Shown: in pieces, positions 3,528-43,305 of the stretch | Numbering within the stretch: the first letter of the stretch is position 1 | Layout: every line of letters begins with the position of its first letter | Assembly: GCF_021026315.1 (NCBI RefSeq) | Contig: NZ_JAJNCX010000003.1 | Span: 124,001 to 188,000, forward strand | From: Rhizobium sp. C4 | GTDB taxonomy: Bacteria; Pseudomonadota; Alphaproteobacteria; Rhizobiales; Rhizobiaceae | Length of the DNA: 64,000 nucleotides | Reading direction: 5' to 3' | Notes under the pieces: generated by a model | Told to the model about the DNA's origin: nothing | The model's input: the letters and a program-made list of their open reading frames with translations, nothing else | The model's database searches: none | Position numbers and translations under genes: made by a program

Positions 3528-3722
3528 TCGCGGTTCTCTATCCGGGCCACGCTCGCGTCAGCCTGAGACGCGCCCTGCGCAATTGTGACAGCCATTAAGA
3601 CTCTGTTTCATATGATTCGGCGTGACCGGCGCCGGAACCCCGAAATTAGGTTTTCGGTAACATTTGAGGCGGCATAGTCCTGCCTGTATGACGGGCCTGG
3701 AGGGGGAAGAAATCCACGGGCG

Positions 3723-3798
3723 GCATGATGCCTTTCCGTCGTCGCCGGTAATCGTTTCAATCCGGTATGTCCCTGTTTTTGTTTTGCGTAAAGGGACA
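3723..3798 (+). promoter_or_regulatory. Flagellin 1 upstream block and SD-masking hairpin
   Basis: Upstream of the first flagellin lie a GCATGATGC block (3723-3731), GCCGGTA (3744-3750) and CCGGTATGTCCCT (3762-3774). Similar blocks precede all four flagellin genes. TGTCCCT (3768-3774) is complementary to AGGGACA (3792-3798), which contains the Shine-Dalgarno of the gene, so the mRNA can form a 7-bp hairpin with a 17-nt loop that hides the ribosome site. The function as a translational switch is inferred. Confidence 0.6.
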
Positions 3799-3804
3799 AT
3801 CCCA

Positions 3805-4770
3805 ATGACTAGCATTATGACGAACGGCGCAGCTATGTCTGCGCTCCAGACGCTGCGCGGCATCTCCTCGCAGATGGACGACACGCAGAGCGCGATCTCC
3901 TCCGGTCTTCGCGTTTCCAAGGCCTCCGACAACGCCGCATACTGGTCGATTGCGACCACGATGCGTTCGGACAACAAGGCTCTCTCCACCGTTGGTGACG
4001 CTCTCGGTCTTGCTGCTGCAAAGACCGATACGGCTTACACCGGCCTGAACGCCTCGATCTCCGTCGTTGACCAGATCAAGTCCAAGCTCGTTGCCGCCCG
4101 CGAACCGGGTGTCGACAAGACGAAGATCAATTCGGAACTCACCGAACTGAAGTCGCAGCTGACCTCCATCTCGAAGTCTGCTTCGTTCTCGGGCGAAAAC
4201 TGGCTCTACAACACGACCGGCACCGCCGGCACGAAGGAAATGGTCGGTTCGTTCACCCGCGATACCACGGGCAACGTGTCGATCAACACGCTGAAGTTCA
4301 ACGCTGCCAACTCGGTCCTCATCGACACGAACGCAGCCAGCGGCGGCCAATTGACGAAGGCGCTGACGGTGAACCAGCCGATCGCCAACTCGACCGGCAC
4401 CACGACCGCGACCTACTTCCTTATCGATGCCAAGTCGACGACATCGGCAGGCGGCAGCGAAATCAAGCTGACGACTGGCACGAACGACCAGAACATCGAA
4501 GGCATGATCTCGGCCGTTGATACGATGCTGACGAACCTGACGGACTCCGCCTCCAAGCTCGGCGCCGTCAACAGCCGCATCTCGATGCAGAACGACTTCG
4601 TCAACAATCTGCAGGACGTGATCTCCAAGGGGGTTGGCCGTCTCGTTGACGCCGACATGAACCAGGAATCGACCAAGCTGAAGGCGCTGCAGACGCAGCA
4701 GCAGCTCGGCATCCAGGCCCTGTCGATCGCCAACTCCGACAGCCAGAGCGTTCTCTCGCTCTTCCGCTGA
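3805..4770 (+). CDS. flaA: Flagellin (first of four tandem genes)
   Basis: A 321-residue short rhizobial flagellin, the main filament subunit. The conserved N-terminal D0/D1 helix begins MTSIMTNGAAMSALQTL, and the C-terminal D0 helix ends in LKALQTQQQLGIQALSIANS and SVLSLFR. The central domain is small, as in complex rhizobial filaments. I chose the ATG at 3805 rather than the in-frame start at 3664. It matches the other three copies and has AGGGA eight bases upstream, while the 47 extra codons cover the leader hairpin. The nearest relative is the next gene, with a 95-bp identical tract (4423-4517). The flaA letter follows gene order, not a proven orthology. Confidence 0.96.
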   Translation: MTSIMTNGAAMSALQTLRGISSQMDDTQSAISSGLRVSKASDNAAYWSIATTMRSDNKALSTVGDALGLAAAKTDTAYTGLNASISVVDQIKSKLVAAREPGVDKTKINSELTELKSQLTSISKSASFSGENWLYNTTGTAGTKEMVGSFTRDTTGNVSINTLKFNAANSVLIDTNAASGGQLTKALTVNQPIANSTGTTTATYFLIDAKSTTSAGGSEIKLTTGTNDQNIEGMISAVDTMLTNLTDSASKLGAVNSRISMQNDFVNNLQDVISKGVGRLVDADMNQESTKLKALQTQQQLGIQALSIANSDSQSVLSLFR

Positions 4771-4804
4771 TCCTTCGACCGAAACCGTTCCCGCTTGAAA
4801 CGAG

Positions 4805-4830
4805 AGCCGCGCCCTCTGGCGCGGCTTTTC
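4805..4830 (+). terminator. Intrinsic terminator after flagellin 1
   Basis: An 8-bp perfect stem GCCGCGCC / GGCGCGGC (4806-4813 with 4818-4825), loop CTCT, followed by TTTT. It lies 35 bp after the flagellin stop, so the flagellin genes are probably transcribed separately. Confidence 0.85.
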
Positions 4831-4925
4831 TATGTCTTGGCCTCGTCAATTCTCCTGAACGTTTTTCAGCATATGTTAAGCTTGATGTTTGATTGTCCTG
4901 TTCAGCGGGGCCGTTAACCACGGTC

Positions 4926-4994
4926 GCATGACGCTTCCCCGCAACCGCCGGTTCGCCCCGGCATGTCCCTCTAGAGTATTGTGTATCAGGGACA
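4926..4994 (+). promoter_or_regulatory. Flagellin 2 upstream block and SD-masking hairpin
   Basis: This has the same arrangement as before flagellin 1: GCATGACGC (4926-4934), GCCGGTT (4947-4953) and CCGGCATGTCCCT (4958-4970). TGTCCCT (4964-4970) pairs with AGGGACA (4988-4994), again with a loop of exactly 17 nt but a different loop sequence. The AGGGA is the Shine-Dalgarno for the ATG at 4999. Confidence 0.6.
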
Positions 4995-4998
4995 ACCC

Positions 4999-5964
4999 AT
5001 GACCAGCATTATGACAAACGGCGCAGCTATGTCTGCGCTCCAGACTCTCCGTGGCATTTCCTCGCAAATGGACGACACGCAGAGTGCTATCTCTTCGGGC
5101 CTTCGCGTTTCCAAGGCCTCCGACAACGCCGCTTACTGGTCGATTGCGACCACGATGCGTTCGGACAACAAGGCTCTCTCCACCGTTGGCGACGCTCTTG
5201 GTCTTGCCGCTGCAAAGACCGACACGGCCTACACCGGTCTCAACGCCTCGATCTCTGTCGTTGACGAAATCAAGTCCAAGCTCGTTGCCGCCCGCGAACC
5301 GGGTGTCGACAAGACGAAGGTCAATTCGGAAATCACCGAACTGAAGTCGCAGCTGAGCTCGATTTCCAAGTCGGCTTCGTTCTCGGGCGAAAACTGGCTC
5401 TACAACACCACCGGTACTGCCGGTACGAAGGAAATGGTGGGCTCCTTCACCCGCGATACGACGGGCAATGTTGCGATCAATACGCTGAAGTTCAACGCTG
5501 CGAACTCGGTTCTGGTCGATACCAATGCCGCCAGCGGTGGCCAGCTGACCAAGGCGATCACGGTAAACCAGCCGATTGCCAACTCGACGGGCACCACGAC
5601 CGCGACCTACTTCCTGATCGATGCCAAGTCGACGACATCGGCAGGCGGCAGCGAAATCAAGCTGACGACTGGCACGAACGACCAGAACATCGAAGGCATG
5701 ATCTCGGCCGTCGATAACATGTTGACCAGCATGACGTCGGTTGCCTCGACGCTTGGCGCGACGTCCAGCCGCATCCAGCTGCAGAACAACTTCGTTGCCG
5801 ACCTGCAGGACGTGATCGGTAAGGGCGTTGGCCGCCTCGTGGATGCCGACATGAACCAGGAATCGACGAAGCTGAAGGCGCTGCAGACGCAGCAGCAGCT
5901 CGGCATCCAGTCGCTGTCGATTGCCAACTCCGACAGTCAGAGCATCCTGTCGCTCTTCCGCTAA
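4999..5964 (+). CDS. flaB: Flagellin (second of four tandem genes)
   Basis: A 321-residue flagellin, nearly identical to the first copy across both terminal D0/D1 regions and differing mainly around residues 245-270 (SMTSVASTLGATSSRIQLQNNFVADLQ). The ATG at 4999 is chosen over an in-frame ATG at 4981 because it aligns with the start of all paralogues and follows AGGGACA. It ends in SILSLFR. A 95-bp tract (5617-5711) is base-for-base identical to the first flagellin although flanking codons differ, suggesting gene conversion. It has its own leader and terminator. Confidence 0.96.
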   Translation: MTSIMTNGAAMSALQTLRGISSQMDDTQSAISSGLRVSKASDNAAYWSIATTMRSDNKALSTVGDALGLAAAKTDTAYTGLNASISVVDEIKSKLVAAREPGVDKTKVNSEITELKSQLSSISKSASFSGENWLYNTTGTAGTKEMVGSFTRDTTGNVAINTLKFNAANSVLVDTNAASGGQLTKAITVNQPIANSTGTTTATYFLIDAKSTTSAGGSEIKLTTGTNDQNIEGMISAVDNMLTSMTSVASTLGATSSRIQLQNNFVADLQDVIGKGVGRLVDADMNQESTKLKALQTQQQLGIQSLSIANSDSQSILSLFR

Positions 5965-6016
5965 AACCCGGGTCAGGGGAGGCGAGGACGTCGCCTCCCA
6001 ACAGCCGGAAAATCAG

Positions 6017-6047
6017 AAAGGGTCGCCCCTTCGGGCGGCCCTTTTTC
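6017..6047 (+). terminator. Intrinsic terminator after flagellin 2
   Basis: A 10-bp stem AGGGTCGCCC / GGGCGGCCCT (6019-6028 with 6033-6042, one G-T pair), loop CTTC, followed by a T tract to 6046. Confidence 0.85.
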
Positions 6048-6178
6048 TGTTTCAGCAGTGAAATATGACTGGTTAGAATTACTAGGTCAGATCCCGAACG
6101 CATTTAAGCTTAATTAACCACGATGGTGTCTTTTAGACATATTGAAACGACGCGTTAACCTTAACAGTTGGTTATCGA

Positions 6179-6257
6179 GCATGATGCTGCAGCGACGTTG
6201 CCGTAGATATATCCGGCATGACCCCCCTTAAATTCTAGTCTGTCAAACACAGGGGCA
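6179..6257 (+). promoter_or_regulatory. Flagellin 3 upstream block and leader
   Basis: The conserved blocks recur: GCATGATGC (6179-6187) and CCGGCATGACCCCCC (6213-6227). The hairpin is weaker here: CCCCT (6224-6228) can pair with AGGGG (6251-6255) just upstream of the ATG at 6264. TTAACCTTAAC precedes the block. Confidence 0.45.
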
Positions 6258-6263
6258 GTACAC

Positions 6264-7229
6264 ATGACGAGCATTATGACGAACACTTCCGCAATGGCTG
6301 CATTGCAGACCTTGCGTACGATTGACATGAACATGTCCGACACGCAGAACGCGATTTCGTCGGGCTATCGCGTCAACACCGCTTCAGACAACGCCGCATA
6401 CTGGTCGATCGCAACGACAATGCGTTCGGACAACAAGGCTCTTTCTACCGTTGGTGACGCGCTGGGTCTGGCCGCTGCGAAGACCGACACGGCCTACACC
6501 GGTCTCACGTCTTCCATCTCGGTGATCGACGAAATCAAGGCGAAGCTGGTTGCTGCCCGCGAACCGGGTGTCGACAAGACGAAGATCAATTCGGAACTCA
6601 CCGAACTGAAGTCGCAGCTGACCTCCATCTCGAAGTCCGCTTCGTTCTCGGGCGAAAACTGGCTCTACAACACCACCGGCACTGCCGGTACGAAGGAAAT
6701 GGTGGGTTCGTTTACCCGTGACAATTCGGGCAACGTCTCGGTCAACACGCTGAAGTTCAACGCCGCCAATTCCGTCCTCGTCGATACCGGTGCTGCTTCG
6801 CAGGGCCAGCTGACGAAGGCGATCACGGTCAACCAGCCGATCGCCAACTCGACAGGAACGACGACGGCGACCTACTTCCTCATCGACGCCAAGTCGACGA
6901 CGTCTGCAGGCGGCACCGAAATCAAGCTGACGACGGGCACGAACGATCAGGACATCGAAGGCATGATCTCTGCCGTCGATAACATGCTGACCAACGTGAC
7001 GTCCGTGGCCTCCACGCTCGGTGCGACCTCGACCCGCATCCAGCTGCAGAACTCCTTCGTCGCCGACCTGCAGGACGTGATCGGCAAGGGCGTTGGTCGT
7101 CTCGTCGACGCCGACATGAACCAGGAGTCGACCAAGCTGAAGGCGCTGCAGACGCAGCAGCAGCTCGGCATCCAGTCGCTCTCGATCGCCAACTCGGCCG
7201 GTCAGAACATCATGTCGCTCTTCAGGTAA
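6264..7229 (+). CDS. flaC: Flagellin (third of four tandem genes)
   Basis: A 321-residue flagellin starting MTSIMTNTSAMAALQTL. The N-terminal segment is more divergent (TIDMNMSDTQNAISSGYRVNTASDNAAYW), and the central domain is close to the first two copies. It ends in AGQNIMSLFR. It is a filament subunit of the same type. The ATG at 6264 follows AGGGGCA. Preceding sequence holds the conserved flagellin leader; a strong terminator follows. Paralogue letters vary between rhizobia (the third and fourth copies are flaD and flaC in some), so the symbol is positional. Confidence 0.95.
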   Translation: MTSIMTNTSAMAALQTLRTIDMNMSDTQNAISSGYRVNTASDNAAYWSIATTMRSDNKALSTVGDALGLAAAKTDTAYTGLTSSISVIDEIKAKLVAAREPGVDKTKINSELTELKSQLTSISKSASFSGENWLYNTTGTAGTKEMVGSFTRDNSGNVSVNTLKFNAANSVLVDTGAASQGQLTKAITVNQPIANSTGTTTATYFLIDAKSTTSAGGTEIKLTTGTNDQDIEGMISAVDNMLTNVTSVASTLGATSTRIQLQNSFVADLQDVIGKGVGRLVDADMNQESTKLKALQTQQQLGIQSLSIANSAGQNIMSLFR

Positions 7230-7589
7230 TCTGACGCGAATCACTGTCCCCCCAGAGCGGGCAGACAGACGGTCGCTTTGGTCCAGAGGGTCATTGAGAA
7301 GCCGCACCACGTCACGTGGTGCGGCTTTTTCGGTTTTTCGCTGTACCCATCTAAGTATTTGAATATATTAACAAAAGCCTACCGAGCGCTCCGCTTGGTA
7401 ATTCATTCTTCAATCAAATTAACAACTTGCTAATGCCATTAAAGATTTGTTAACCTTGTTTCCGTTAAAGCTTCGTTAAGAACGCGGACAGGCCCCAGGG
7501 CAAAATGGGCCAGAGCATGATGCTATTCCTGCGTTGCCGGTATCCTTAACTCCGGAATGTCCCTCGTCTTCATTTTGGGGCAATGACCG
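7230..7589 (+). promoter_or_regulatory. 360-bp gap: terminator, then flagellin 4 promoter region and leader
   Basis: The terminator of flagellin 3 is followed by AT-rich DNA with several TTAAC/TTAAAG/TTAAG repeats (about 7365-7480), then the shared blocks: GCATGATGC (7515-7523), GCCGGTA (7536-7542) and CCGGAATGTCCCT (7552-7564). TGTCCC (7558-7563) can pair with GGGGCA (7577-7582), one G-T pair, loop 13 nt, immediately 5' of the start at 7590. No gene is seen in the gap. Confidence 0.55.
7299..7330 (+). terminator. Intrinsic terminator after flagellin 3
   Basis: An 11-bp perfect stem GCCGCACCACG / CGTGGTGCGGC (7301-7311 with 7315-7325), extendable by A-T, loop TCA, followed by TTTTT. Confidence 0.88.
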
Positions 7590-8558
7590 ATGACAAGCAT
7601 TATGACCAATGCTGCCGCGATGGCGGCACTGCAGACTCTGCGCACAATCGACGGCAATCTGGAATCGACCCAGAACAAGATCTCCTCAGGCTATCGTGTT
7701 CAGACCGCGTCCGACAACGCCGCTTACTGGTCGATCGCAACGACCATGCGCTCGGACAACAAGGCACTCTCCACCGTCAGCGATGCGCTCGGTCTGGGTG
7801 CTGCAAAGACCGACACTGCCTACACCGCACTGGACTCCTCAATCTCGGTTATCGAGGAAATCAAGGCCAAGCTGGTCGCCGCGCGCGAACCGGGTGTCGA
7901 CAAGACCAAGATCAATTCCGAACTGGCCGAACTGAAATCGCAGCTGCAGTCCATCTCGCAGTCCGCGTCGTTCTCCGGTGAAAACTGGCTTTACAATTCC
8001 TCGACCACACCTGCGGGCACGAAGGAAATGGTTGCGTCGTTCAACCGCTCGACCAACGGCTCGGTTGCCGTCACGACGCTGACATTCAACGCCAGCGAAT
8101 CCATCATGATCGACACCAACGATGCAAATCTTGGTGCGCTGACCAAGGACGTCACCGTAACGCAACCACAGGCCGGCACGTCCGCGACGACAACGGCGAC
8201 CTACTTCCTCATCAATGCCAAGTCGACGACGTCCGCGTCGGGTTCTGAAGTCAAGCTGACGACCGGAACGCCGTCCGAGAACATCGACGGCATGATCTCC
8301 GCAGTCGATCTGATGCTGACTGGCCTGACCAAGGTCGCCTCCGACCTGGGTGCCATCAACAAGCGCATCGACATGCAGGACAACTTCGTCTCCGACCTCA
8401 TGAACGTGATCGACAAGGGCGTTGGACGTCTCGTTGACGCCGACATGAACCAGGAATCGACCAAGCTGAAGGCGCTGCAGACGCAGCAGCAGCTGGGCAT
8501 CCAGTCGCTGTCGATCGCGAACACGAACTCGCAGAACATCCTTTCGCTCTTCAAGTAA
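7590..8558 (+). CDS. flaD: Flagellin (fourth of four tandem genes)
   Basis: A 322-residue flagellin and the most divergent of the four. It starts MTSIMTNAAAMAALQTL with a distinct central region (SSTTPAGTKEMVASFNRSTNG, ASESIMIDTNDANLG) and ends NTNSQNILSLFK with a terminal Lys where the others have Arg. It is likely a minor filament subunit, by analogy with other rhizobia that build the filament from one main and several secondary flagellins. An ATG seven bases upstream (7583) is out of frame. It is followed by about 330 bp of non-coding sequence. Confidence 0.94.
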   Translation: MTSIMTNAAAMAALQTLRTIDGNLESTQNKISSGYRVQTASDNAAYWSIATTMRSDNKALSTVSDALGLGAAKTDTAYTALDSSISVIEEIKAKLVAAREPGVDKTKINSELAELKSQLQSISQSASFSGENWLYNSSTTPAGTKEMVASFNRSTNGSVAVTTLTFNASESIMIDTNDANLGALTKDVTVTQPQAGTSATTTATYFLINAKSTTSASGSEVKLTTGTPSENIDGMISAVDLMLTGLTKVASDLGAINKRIDMQDNFVSDLMNVIDKGVGRLVDADMNQESTKLKALQTQQQLGIQSLSIANTNSQNILSLFK

Positions 8559-19195: not shown

Positions 19196-19543
19196 ATGTA
19201 CCAGTTTTCTTACGCAGAGGTCATGGAAGACGGCGTCGCCGACGCCAAGGAACGTGAACGTCAGGTGCTCGATCGTTCGATCGAACTGATGTCCGCCGCA
19301 GCCGCGCGCGGCCGCAATTCCAATGAGGCCGTCGAAGCCATCTATTATACGCGCATGCTCTGGATAAGGCTCACCGAAGACCTTTGCCTGCCGGATAACC
19401 AGCTCGAACCCGAGCTCAAAGCCAACCTCATCTCGATCGCCATCTGGATACTCAACGAGACAGAAAAGATCCGCAAACGCGAATCCGACAACTTCCAGGG
19501 CATCGTCGAAATTACAACCATCATCAGGGATGGACTGAAATGA
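19196..19543 (+). CDS. flaF: Flagellin synthesis regulator FlaF
   Basis: A 115-residue cytoplasmic protein of the FlaF family. In Caulobacter FlaF is required for flagellin synthesis and secretion and opposes FlbT. The recognisable start is [20 protein letters not shown]; the rest is helical with [15 protein letters not shown]-type segments. It starts 15 bp after flgL and overlaps flbT by four bases (ATGA), so FlaF and FlbT are produced together. Confidence 0.93.
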
Positions 19544-19995
19544 AAAGCACACTGCGAATATCTCTGAAATCCGGCGAAAGGATCTTCATCAATGGCGCAG
19601 TGCTGCGCGTCGATCGCAAGGTCGCACTCGAATTCCTGAACGACGTCACCTTCCTGCTGGAAAACCACGTTCTTCAGCCGGAGCAGGCGAACACGCCGCT
19701 CAAGCAGCTCTACTTCATCGCCCAGATGATGCTGATCAACCCGGAAGGCGCCCAGCAGTCGATGGTGATGTTCCGCAAGTCGATCACCATGCTGCTCTCC
19801 TGCTTCCAGAACGAGGAAGTACTGGCAGAGCTGAAGCGCATCGACGGCATGGTTTCGACGGGCCGCGCCTTTGATGCCCTGAAGGCAATCCGGTCGCTTT
19901 ATCCGATTGAGGAAAAGATCCTCAACGACGAGGAAATGACACCCGCAGCGGTCGAACAGATCCGCAAGGAGATTGCACCATGGTCAGCGCGGTAA
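19540..19995 (+). CDS. flbT: Flagellin mRNA translational repressor FlbT
   Basis: A 151-residue protein of the FlbT family. In Caulobacter FlbT binds the 5' leader of flagellin mRNA and promotes its decay until the hook is complete. Conserved parts are [19 protein letters not shown] and [21 protein letters not shown]. It overlaps flaF (4 bp) and flgD (16 bp). In this window the plausible targets are the hairpin leaders before the flagellin genes at 3768-3798, 4964-4994 and 7558-7582; that link is inferred. Confidence 0.93.
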
Positions 19996-42881: not shown

Positions 42882-43196
42882 TCACGACGCCATTTTCATG
42901 GTCACCAGGCCGACCAGAATGCATGTTGCAGCAATGGCCCGCATCGGCGTGAGGGCATCGCCGAGAAAGATCACGCCGACCAGAAACGCCCCGAGCGCGC
43001 CGATGCCCGTCCAGATCATATAGGAGGTTCCGAGCGGAAGTTCGCGCATGGCAAGTGCCAGCAGCCCGACCGAGCCGAGCATGGCGACGATTGTAACGAT
43101 GGAGGGAACCGGTCGCGTGAACCCGTGCGAGAGTTTCATCGAATAGGCCCAGACGACTTCAAGGCCACCAGCGACAAGCAGAAATATCCATGACAT
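42882..43196 (-). CDS. Small multidrug resistance exporter, SugE/Gdx type
   Basis: A 104-residue four-helix transporter: SWIFLLVAGGLEVVWAYSMK with the essential Glu of the family in GGLEVVWA, then MIWTGIGALGAFLVGVIFLGDALT and ILVGLVTMK. The WAYSMKLSHGF segment places it in the SugE/Gdx (guanidinium/quaternary ammonium exporter) subgroup of SMR rather than EmrE, though the subgroup is a judgement. The ATG at 43196 removes 33 non-membrane residues of the longer frame. I see no guanidine riboswitch in the 114 bp upstream. Confidence 0.85.
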   Translation of the reverse strand: MSWIFLLVAGGLEVVWAYSMKLSHGFTRPVPSIVTIVAMLGSVGLLALAMRELPLGTSYMIWTGIGALGAFLVGVIFLGDALTPMRAIAATCILVGLVTMKMAS

Positions 43197-43199
43197 GAC

Positions 43200-43305
43200 G
43201 ATCACCGTAAATGCGGGTCGTCCCGGCTTTGCTTGACCCGACAGGGGCGAGGTCGTCCTCGCGATCTGAGATAGGACATGCGGGCCCCGCTTCAAGGGCC
43301 CGCAA
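43200..43305. repeat. Mosaic of palindromes between the SMR gene and glutamine synthetase gene
   Basis: A 106-bp spacer made of adjacent palindromes: GCGGGTC...GACCCG (about 43211-43242), GCGAGG/CCTCGC (about 43249-43264) and TGCGGGCCC / GGGCCCGCA (43279-43287 with 43296-43304, loop 8). This is the composition of RIME-type elements. The last palindrome may act as terminator of the synthetase gene. Confidence 0.5.

Follow-up and report, generated by a model that had tools for sequence, protein, structure and literature searches.

The window analysed here, a stretch of 64,000 nucleotides (nt) from Rhizobium sp. C4 (contig NZ_JAJNCX010000003.1, positions 124,001 to 188,000), carries four flagellin genes, and one conserved RNA element of three hairpins (H1, H2 and H3) is common to the leaders of all four. 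In the aligned leaders, H1 (consensus RGC-AUGAN-GCY) is followed by a linker of 13-14 nt, then by H2 (CCGG-loop-CCGG), by NAUGUCCC, by a loop and finally by the ribosome-site arm. The UGUCCC sequence just 3′ of H2 pairs with this arm, GGGRCA, to form H3, which appears to cover the Shine-Dalgarno (SD) sequence. We class the leader with the known kind of flagellin control linked to FlbT, as a variant whose RNA element has no family in Rfam. In the model that we favor, with roughly even confidence, an FlbT protein of one deep clade (clade B) would read the leader, open the ribosome site and so couple flagellin translation to flagellar assembly.

All four copies of the element lie on the forward strand, where GCATGA can be read directly from the sequence at positions 3723, 4926, 6179 and 7515 for flagellins 1 to 4, respectively. 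In flagellin 1 (start codon at 3805), H1 is GGC-AUGAU-GCC (3722-3732), H2 pairs CCGG at 3745-3748 with CCGG at 3762-3765, and H3 joins UGUCCCU (3768-3774) to AGGGACA (3792-3798), which contains the ribosome site, across a loop of 17 nt. Flagellin 2 (start codon at 4999) has GC-AUGAC-GC as H1 (4926-4934), CCGG at 4948-4951 and 4958-4961 as H2, and the same H3 arms at 4964-4970 and 4988-4994, again with a 17 nt loop. In flagellin 4 (start codon at 7590), H1 is AGC-AUGAU-GCU (7514-7524), the arms of H2 are CCGG at 7537-7540 and 7552-7555, and UGUCCC at 7558-7563 (TGTCCCT, 7558-7564) pairs with GGGGCA at 7577-7582 over a shorter loop. The leader of flagellin 3 (start codon at 6264) has the same H1 (6178-6188), a shifted H2 pairing of GCCG (6200-6203) with CGGC (6214-6217), and a weak H3 between TGACCCC at 6219 and GGGGCA at 6252-6257, in which CCCC pairs with GGGG and the remaining pairs are broken. 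A 5′ arm complementary to the ribosome site is thus present in flagellins 1, 2 and 4 and weak in flagellin 3.

Leaders for comparison came from a scan of named genomes, which yielded 76 loci, and from a search of 61 genomes of the family; a script extracted 265 distinct flagellin leaders, those of our own genome included. Among the 262 with enough upstream sequence, CATGANG and the CCGG-ATG block occurred together in 213; CATGANG alone was present in 18 and the CCGG-ATG block alone in 19, and 12 had neither. Ten relatives, none of them from the window's genus, supplied the sequences for the covariance model R1, which contained no window sequence. The model nevertheless recovered all four leaders in 849 kb, with E-values, which are rough for these models, of 3.3e-13 (3720-3802), 1.2e-9 (4923-4998), 5.1e-7 (6176-6261) and 1.2e-10 (7512-7586). 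This confirms what an earlier note on this DNA had claimed, namely that the flagellin leaders share upstream blocks and a stem over the SD sequence; its pairing of TGTCCCT with AGGGACA over 17 nt in flagellins 1 and 2, with a shorter version in flagellin 4 and a weaker one in flagellin 3, agrees with the positions given above. The note had also read the identical loop length of flagellins 1 and 2 as kept spacing, but this equal length does not hold generally. In the fully parsed set of 87 leaders (the reduced set comprised 180), the H3 loop, counted from TGTCCC to the ribosome arm, ranges from 9 to 25 nt, flagellins 1 and 2 both having the 18 nt that are found in 19 of the 87, and the H2 loop from 4 to 15 nt. 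The distance from H1 to the first CCGG, on the other hand, is nearly fixed, with 13 or 14 nt in 80 of the 87 and 13-16 nt overall. The length of the linker is therefore kept and the lengths of the loops are not.

A second model, R2, comprised 150 sequences including the window leaders; a first large alignment (A2), in which arms were misplaced, was left out of model building. In the large-scale searches, run with strict filters that lose weak matches, R2 matched 119 of 151 Rhizobiaceae genomes and 40 of 199 genomes of the order sample. Only two of the 240 genomes of the class sample gave a match, our own and one with a marginal match of 26 bits and no flagellin by tblastn, so that within this sample the element was not found at any flagellin outside the order. 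When 19 of the order-level matches were inspected, 14 proved to stand before a flagellin and 5 before a chemoreceptor-like gene.

The pairing of H1 was assessed in 208 distinct leaders picked by CATGANG, a selection that in itself fixes the innermost C-G pair. The pair beside it is standard in all 208 leaders, occurring as GC in 194, GU in 7, AU in 6 and UA in 1 (a doubtful leader), and the next outer pair is standard in 158. For H2, an initial test on 113 leaders (103 with CCGG/CCGG, 4 with other stems and 6 with none) was too small and was then widened to 202 anchored leaders, of which 170 have CCGG/CCGG and are hence uninformative for covariation. In the 32 deviant leaders, the arms of the same leader scored above swapped arms (232 versus 147.9 ± 22.7; 1 of 5000 shuffles), and the original stems have been replaced by others such as CCGCA/UGCGG, CCGAC/GUCGG, GCCGAA/UUCGGC and GCUGC/GCAGC. 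By the number of stems the excess is modest, as a stem with a weight of at least 9 was present in 17 of the 32, compared with a shuffled mean of 11.5 and maximum of 19; the 15 stemless rows, several of which, as judged by eye, had a misplaced right anchor, were retained in this test.

For H3, a helix of at least 5 bp to the ribosome arm can be formed in all 136 leaders with UGUCCC. In the wider set, from which 13 of the 32 H2-deviant rows had been removed by name beforehand as misplaced or not of the element, 53 deviant arms paired slightly better than swapped ones (116 of 5000). The compensated forms include UGUCUUU/AAAGACG, which occurs in five leaders from a single genus, as well as UGUCCU/AGGACA, UGUUUCU/AGGAGCA and UGCCU/AGGUA. 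An alignment of 150 matches (148 distinct) showed two-sided changes in three of three H1 pairs, one of four H2 pairs and two of seven H3 pairs, and one-sided changes only in four of the seven H3 pairs. All five measures exceeded those of all 500 shuffles, with the reservation that the alignment was fitted to the structure and leans toward it, and that the shuffles ignore relatedness. Judged from these sequences, there is good support for RNA stems at H1 and H2. The earlier note had proposed covariation in the stem as a check. Compensatory changes are clear in H1 and H2, which the note had treated as blocks of sequence, but they are few in the SD stem and none is detectable there at the level of the Rhizobiaceae. 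Nothing in the material covered here shows either of the outcomes that the note had named as refuting it, a lack of compensation across species or a transcription start downstream of the TGTCCCT arm.

Several leaders depart from the common plan. In L141 and L155, both from a genome of 1.5 Mb (G223), H2 is entirely exchanged for GCUGC/GCAGC, while H1, UGUCCC and the SD arm are kept. Three leaders from three family genomes (L145, L276 and L277) are without UGUCCC, and by eye an ACCU/AGGU hairpin may cover the SD sequence in them. In one group of flagellin paralogs (leaders of L047, L048, L052, L057, L058 and L059), UGUCCC is replaced by UGAGCA or a sequence like UGCGCA, and the SD sequence is seemingly free.

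The candidate partner of the element is encoded in the same window. Downstream of the flagellins, flaF (19196-19543, forward strand; Pfam FlaF PF07309, 107.7 bits) is followed by flbT (19540-19995, forward strand; Pfam FlbT, 146.6 bits), which a tree assigns to clade B, the NGAV type, and which we propose as the protein that reads the leader. In the order sample, FlbT was present in 39 of the 40 genomes with the element, the exception (G172) being 86% complete. In the family sample of 151 genomes, 117 had both, 2 only the element, 9 only FlbT and 23 neither. The tree covers 60 FlbT proteins, a selection made from the order sample, and a single long branch, supported at 100/100, divides it into clade B with 31 rows and clade A with 29. 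Clade B holds 28 rows from 28 of the element genomes (28 of the 40 were placed) in addition to G255, G082 and G179; G255 and G082 fell below the search cut, yet have the element before a flagellin. Six rows of clade A are second FlbT copies of element genomes, and in each of these genomes a distance of 12-21 kb separates the element from the copy of clade B; the flagellins beside the clade-A copy gave no match. The element is thus common in a single flagellar lineage of soil bacteria and tracks one deep clade of FlbT, and the association is strong.

A number of observations weigh against this reading and should be set beside it. The four leaders do not fold significantly when taken singly: the z-scores for leaders 1 to 4 were -1.31, -0.99, +0.63 and +0.27 for short versions and -1.54, -0.59, +1.13 and -1.47 for longer ones. 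Since these scores are ordinary, and since the window has a perfect 7-bp inverted repeat with a loop of 10-25 nt roughly every 504 bases, the SD hairpin alone is not beyond chance. The case for the element is consequently a comparative one, resting on the sequences of relatives and not on single hairpins. When the H1 partner was slid by +1, standard pairs were still found in 177 of the 208 leaders (1 of 208 at -1). The case for H3 is mainly that two conserved motifs are complementary to each other, and covariation in this stem is scarce. At the level of the Rhizobiaceae, 50 deviant left arms had no advantage in pairing over swapped arms (1172 of 5000). The UGUCCC arm is missing from some paralogs and leaders of the R. 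leguminosarum group (L076, L079 and L083). The swap tests were uncorrected for relatedness, and one lineage contributed several of the H2 and H3 deviants. As for the protein, 9 of the 126 FlbT genomes of the family sample had no element match and 2 of the 119 element genomes had no FlbT; G179 belongs to clade B without an element match, and the sole flagellin-domain gene found in it looks hook-associated. Finally, the association is confounded with the entire flagellar lineage and does not separate FlbT from the rest of it.

This confounding leads to the alternative that survives best, in which the leader is real and H1-H2 is read by another factor of the same flagellar lineage, such as FlaF, a flagellin, an RNA-binding protein yet to be named, or a small RNA. 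The co-occurrence with clade-B FlbT would equally fit the flagellar system as a whole, and the two element genomes of the family sample without an FlbT match also speak for it. However, one of these two (G561) is only 89% complete, and FlbT has been reported to act post-transcriptionally on flagellin 5′ untranslated regions (UTRs) in Caulobacter and, as a proposal, in Brucella. We regard another factor as rather unlikely, and FlbT as the best candidate.

The earlier note had named FlbT, encoded at 19540-19995, as the probable leader factor, and this part of its reading is supported insofar as FlbT is the best candidate; its assignment of FlbT as a repressor does not fit what is reported for relatives. 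FlbT induces translation of LafA1/LafA2 in Bradyrhizobium, according to a review (PMC8429497), and is reported as an activator in Brucella (PMC4347634, PMC9812332, PMC8781033). A screen for lost motility in A. fabrum hit flbT, with possible polar effects of the insertion noted by the authors (PMC9812332), and a phylogenomic study places the lateral system of Bradyrhizobium and the systems of the Rhizobiaceae in the same type. One review calls the action of FlbT on flagellin mRNA unresolved (PMC4347634). Because the FlbT proteins of relatives are reported as activators and their flagellar systems are of the same type, activation is probably the likelier sign here, opposite to repression. That FlbT would instead repress translation by stabilizing the SD hairpin, as in Caulobacter, has in its favor the pairing of H3 in every leader with UGUCCC, the reports that FlbT represses in Caulobacter, where the flagellin FljJ serves as co-repressor, and the retained motility of an flbT mutant of Phaeobacter (PMC12363192). 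Apart from the reports of activation, the class sample speaks against it, as outside our own genome it gave only the 26-bit match mentioned above, and we consider repression improbable.

A different possibility is that the conserved blocks act in DNA. A CtrA-like box (TTAA-N7-TTAAC, at most one mismatch, within 150 nt upstream of H1) was present in 92 of 158 leaders, 36 times exactly, where base shuffles would give about 2.8; 56 of the 92 boxes begin 74-86 nt ahead of H1. Downstream of the box there is a weak stretch resembling a -10 element. In the window, the boxes lie on the forward strand at 3646-3661 for flagellin 1 (TTAG-N7-GTAAC, two mismatches, 78 nt upstream of H1), 4865-4880 for flagellin 2 (weak, two mismatches, 62 nt), 6103-6118 for flagellin 3 (one mismatch, 77 nt) and 7439-7454 for flagellin 4 (exact, 77 nt); those of flagellins 3 and 4 stand out more clearly, the boxes of the first two genes being weak. 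From the position of the box and the usual spacing between a CtrA box and the start, transcripts are predicted to begin about 40 nt upstream of H1 and so to include the UGUCCC arm. One study includes flaA, flaC and flaD of S. meliloti in its list of genes whose mapped starts have a CtrA motif upstream (PMC3616915); no flagellin start was found in the available portions of agrobacterial transcription start site maps and of the R. leguminosarum flagellin literature. If H1 and the CCGG blocks served in DNA as sites of a promoter or an activator, with a merely incidental hairpin at the SD sequence, the nearly fixed spacing between them, the nearly palindromic H1 and the presence of the module before a chemotaxis operon would be readily accommodated. 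Yet the arms of H2 covary while the gap between them varies, mostly from 4 to 17 nt, the H1 pair occurs as G-U as well as A-U, and many leaders have the CtrA-like box as a separate site about 80 nt upstream, which together make DNA sites a poor candidate.

The module at the chemotaxis operon is the fifth R2 match in our own genome (C23:100479-100544, or L146:580-645; 30.9 bits). It heads the operon and consists of H1 and H2, with neither UGUCCC nor an SD arm. The gene that follows encodes a protoglobin chemoreceptor (Pfam), and the next open reading frames (ORFs) resemble STAS, CheY, CheA, CheW and CheR by eye. The leaders L147 and L148 look like L146, likewise by eye, and two chemoreceptor-like cases, L149 (HAMP and MCP domains, Pfam) and L150, come from another family. 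Such a module without an SD arm, and compact hairpins near the predicted 5′ end, could also belong to a stability element that shields flagellin mRNA from decay and exerts no control over initiation. Against this, UGUCCC is common opposite the ribosome arm and absent from the chemotaxis leaders L146-L148, and a role in stability seems to us to have little likelihood. Two further candidates were rejected: a long-range pairing between CATGATGCT and the beginning of the coding sequence, AGCATTATG, which three of the four minimum-energy folds contained, since by eye H1 is nearly constant and the codons vary between genes, and a leader peptide from the ATG of NATGTCCC, as there was no frame preference (57/53/52 of 162) and stops were as in shuffles.

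The FlbT-controlled flagellin of Caulobacter crescentus is encoded by fljK. The flagellin 5′ UTRs of C. crescentus and of Brucella melitensis (fliC) are like the leaders studied here in that an FlbT-family protein is reported to control expression post-transcriptionally through the 5′ UTR. The present element differs from them in that it was not seen at flagellins outside the order in the class sample, and in that the FlbT protein belongs to a deep clade with an NGAV signature and would probably activate. Another relative by name is the flg-Rhizobiales RNA (Rfam RF01736), which is likewise structured and owes its name to the flagellar genes of Rhizobiales. Its covariance model had no match, at the gathering score or above, in the window, at 20 of the relatives' loci or in the 61 family genomes, and hence none at these leaders, but it was found in 23 of the 199 order genomes, in 5 of them above the cut-off. 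In two genomes with dual systems (G094 and G239), RF01736 belongs to the flagellar cluster of the clade-A FlbT, at a distance of 13-22 kb from that gene and a long way from the present element, the two flagellar systems of one genome carrying different leader RNAs. No family of Rfam 15 matched the four leaders or 20 of the fetched relatives' loci, and no description of a structured flagellin leader in Rhizobiales was found in the open-licence literature, as covered by titles and the beginnings of abstracts.

CsrA-FliW control of flagellin is similar in that a leader covering the ribosome site ties flagellin translation to assembly. It differs in the protein, since FlbT had no CsrA match in Pfam or in a profile search of the PDB; the idea of a CsrA-like FlbT, prompted by its N-terminal sequence, found no support in these searches. 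An AlphaFold model of the window FlbT, made from the single sequence (mean predicted local distance difference test score, 76.7), had no fold match at an E-value of 0.001 or better.

Elsewhere in the window, on the reverse strand, a Guanidine-II riboswitch (43213-43264; Rfam, 36.6 bits) stands at the start of a small membrane-protein ORF (42882-43295, likely ATG at 43196), which we read by eye as an exporter of the SMR type.

In the favored model, then, each flagellin mRNA would be headed by the conserved structured leader, in which H1 and H2, 13-14 nt apart, would form the recognition module. Pairing of UGUCCC with the ribosome-site arm in H3 would hold translation low by default, until clade-B FlbT, which most likely binds H1-H2, remodels the leader and opens the ribosome site. 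In concert with FlaF and secretion, this opening would link the translation of flagellin to the assembly of the flagellum. More tentatively, there may be two types of FlbT regulator. Clade B would be an activator that acts through H1, the linker of 13/14 nt and H2 to open an SD switch, and that also puts the chemotaxis operon under the same assembly-coupled control; clade A, taken as Caulobacter-like, would repress through other leaders. This extension is possible though not the expected outcome, and Caulobacter's own FlbT was absent from the tree, so that the window FlbT is placed relative to clade A and not to the Caulobacter protein itself. A leader that tracks one FlbT clade provides a concrete RNA target for this regulator, and its sharing among the four flagellin genes could explain how they are tuned jointly. 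Such a leader also offers a reason for the opposite signs of FlbT action reported in different species, and predicts that chemotaxis genes would come under the same control as the flagellins.

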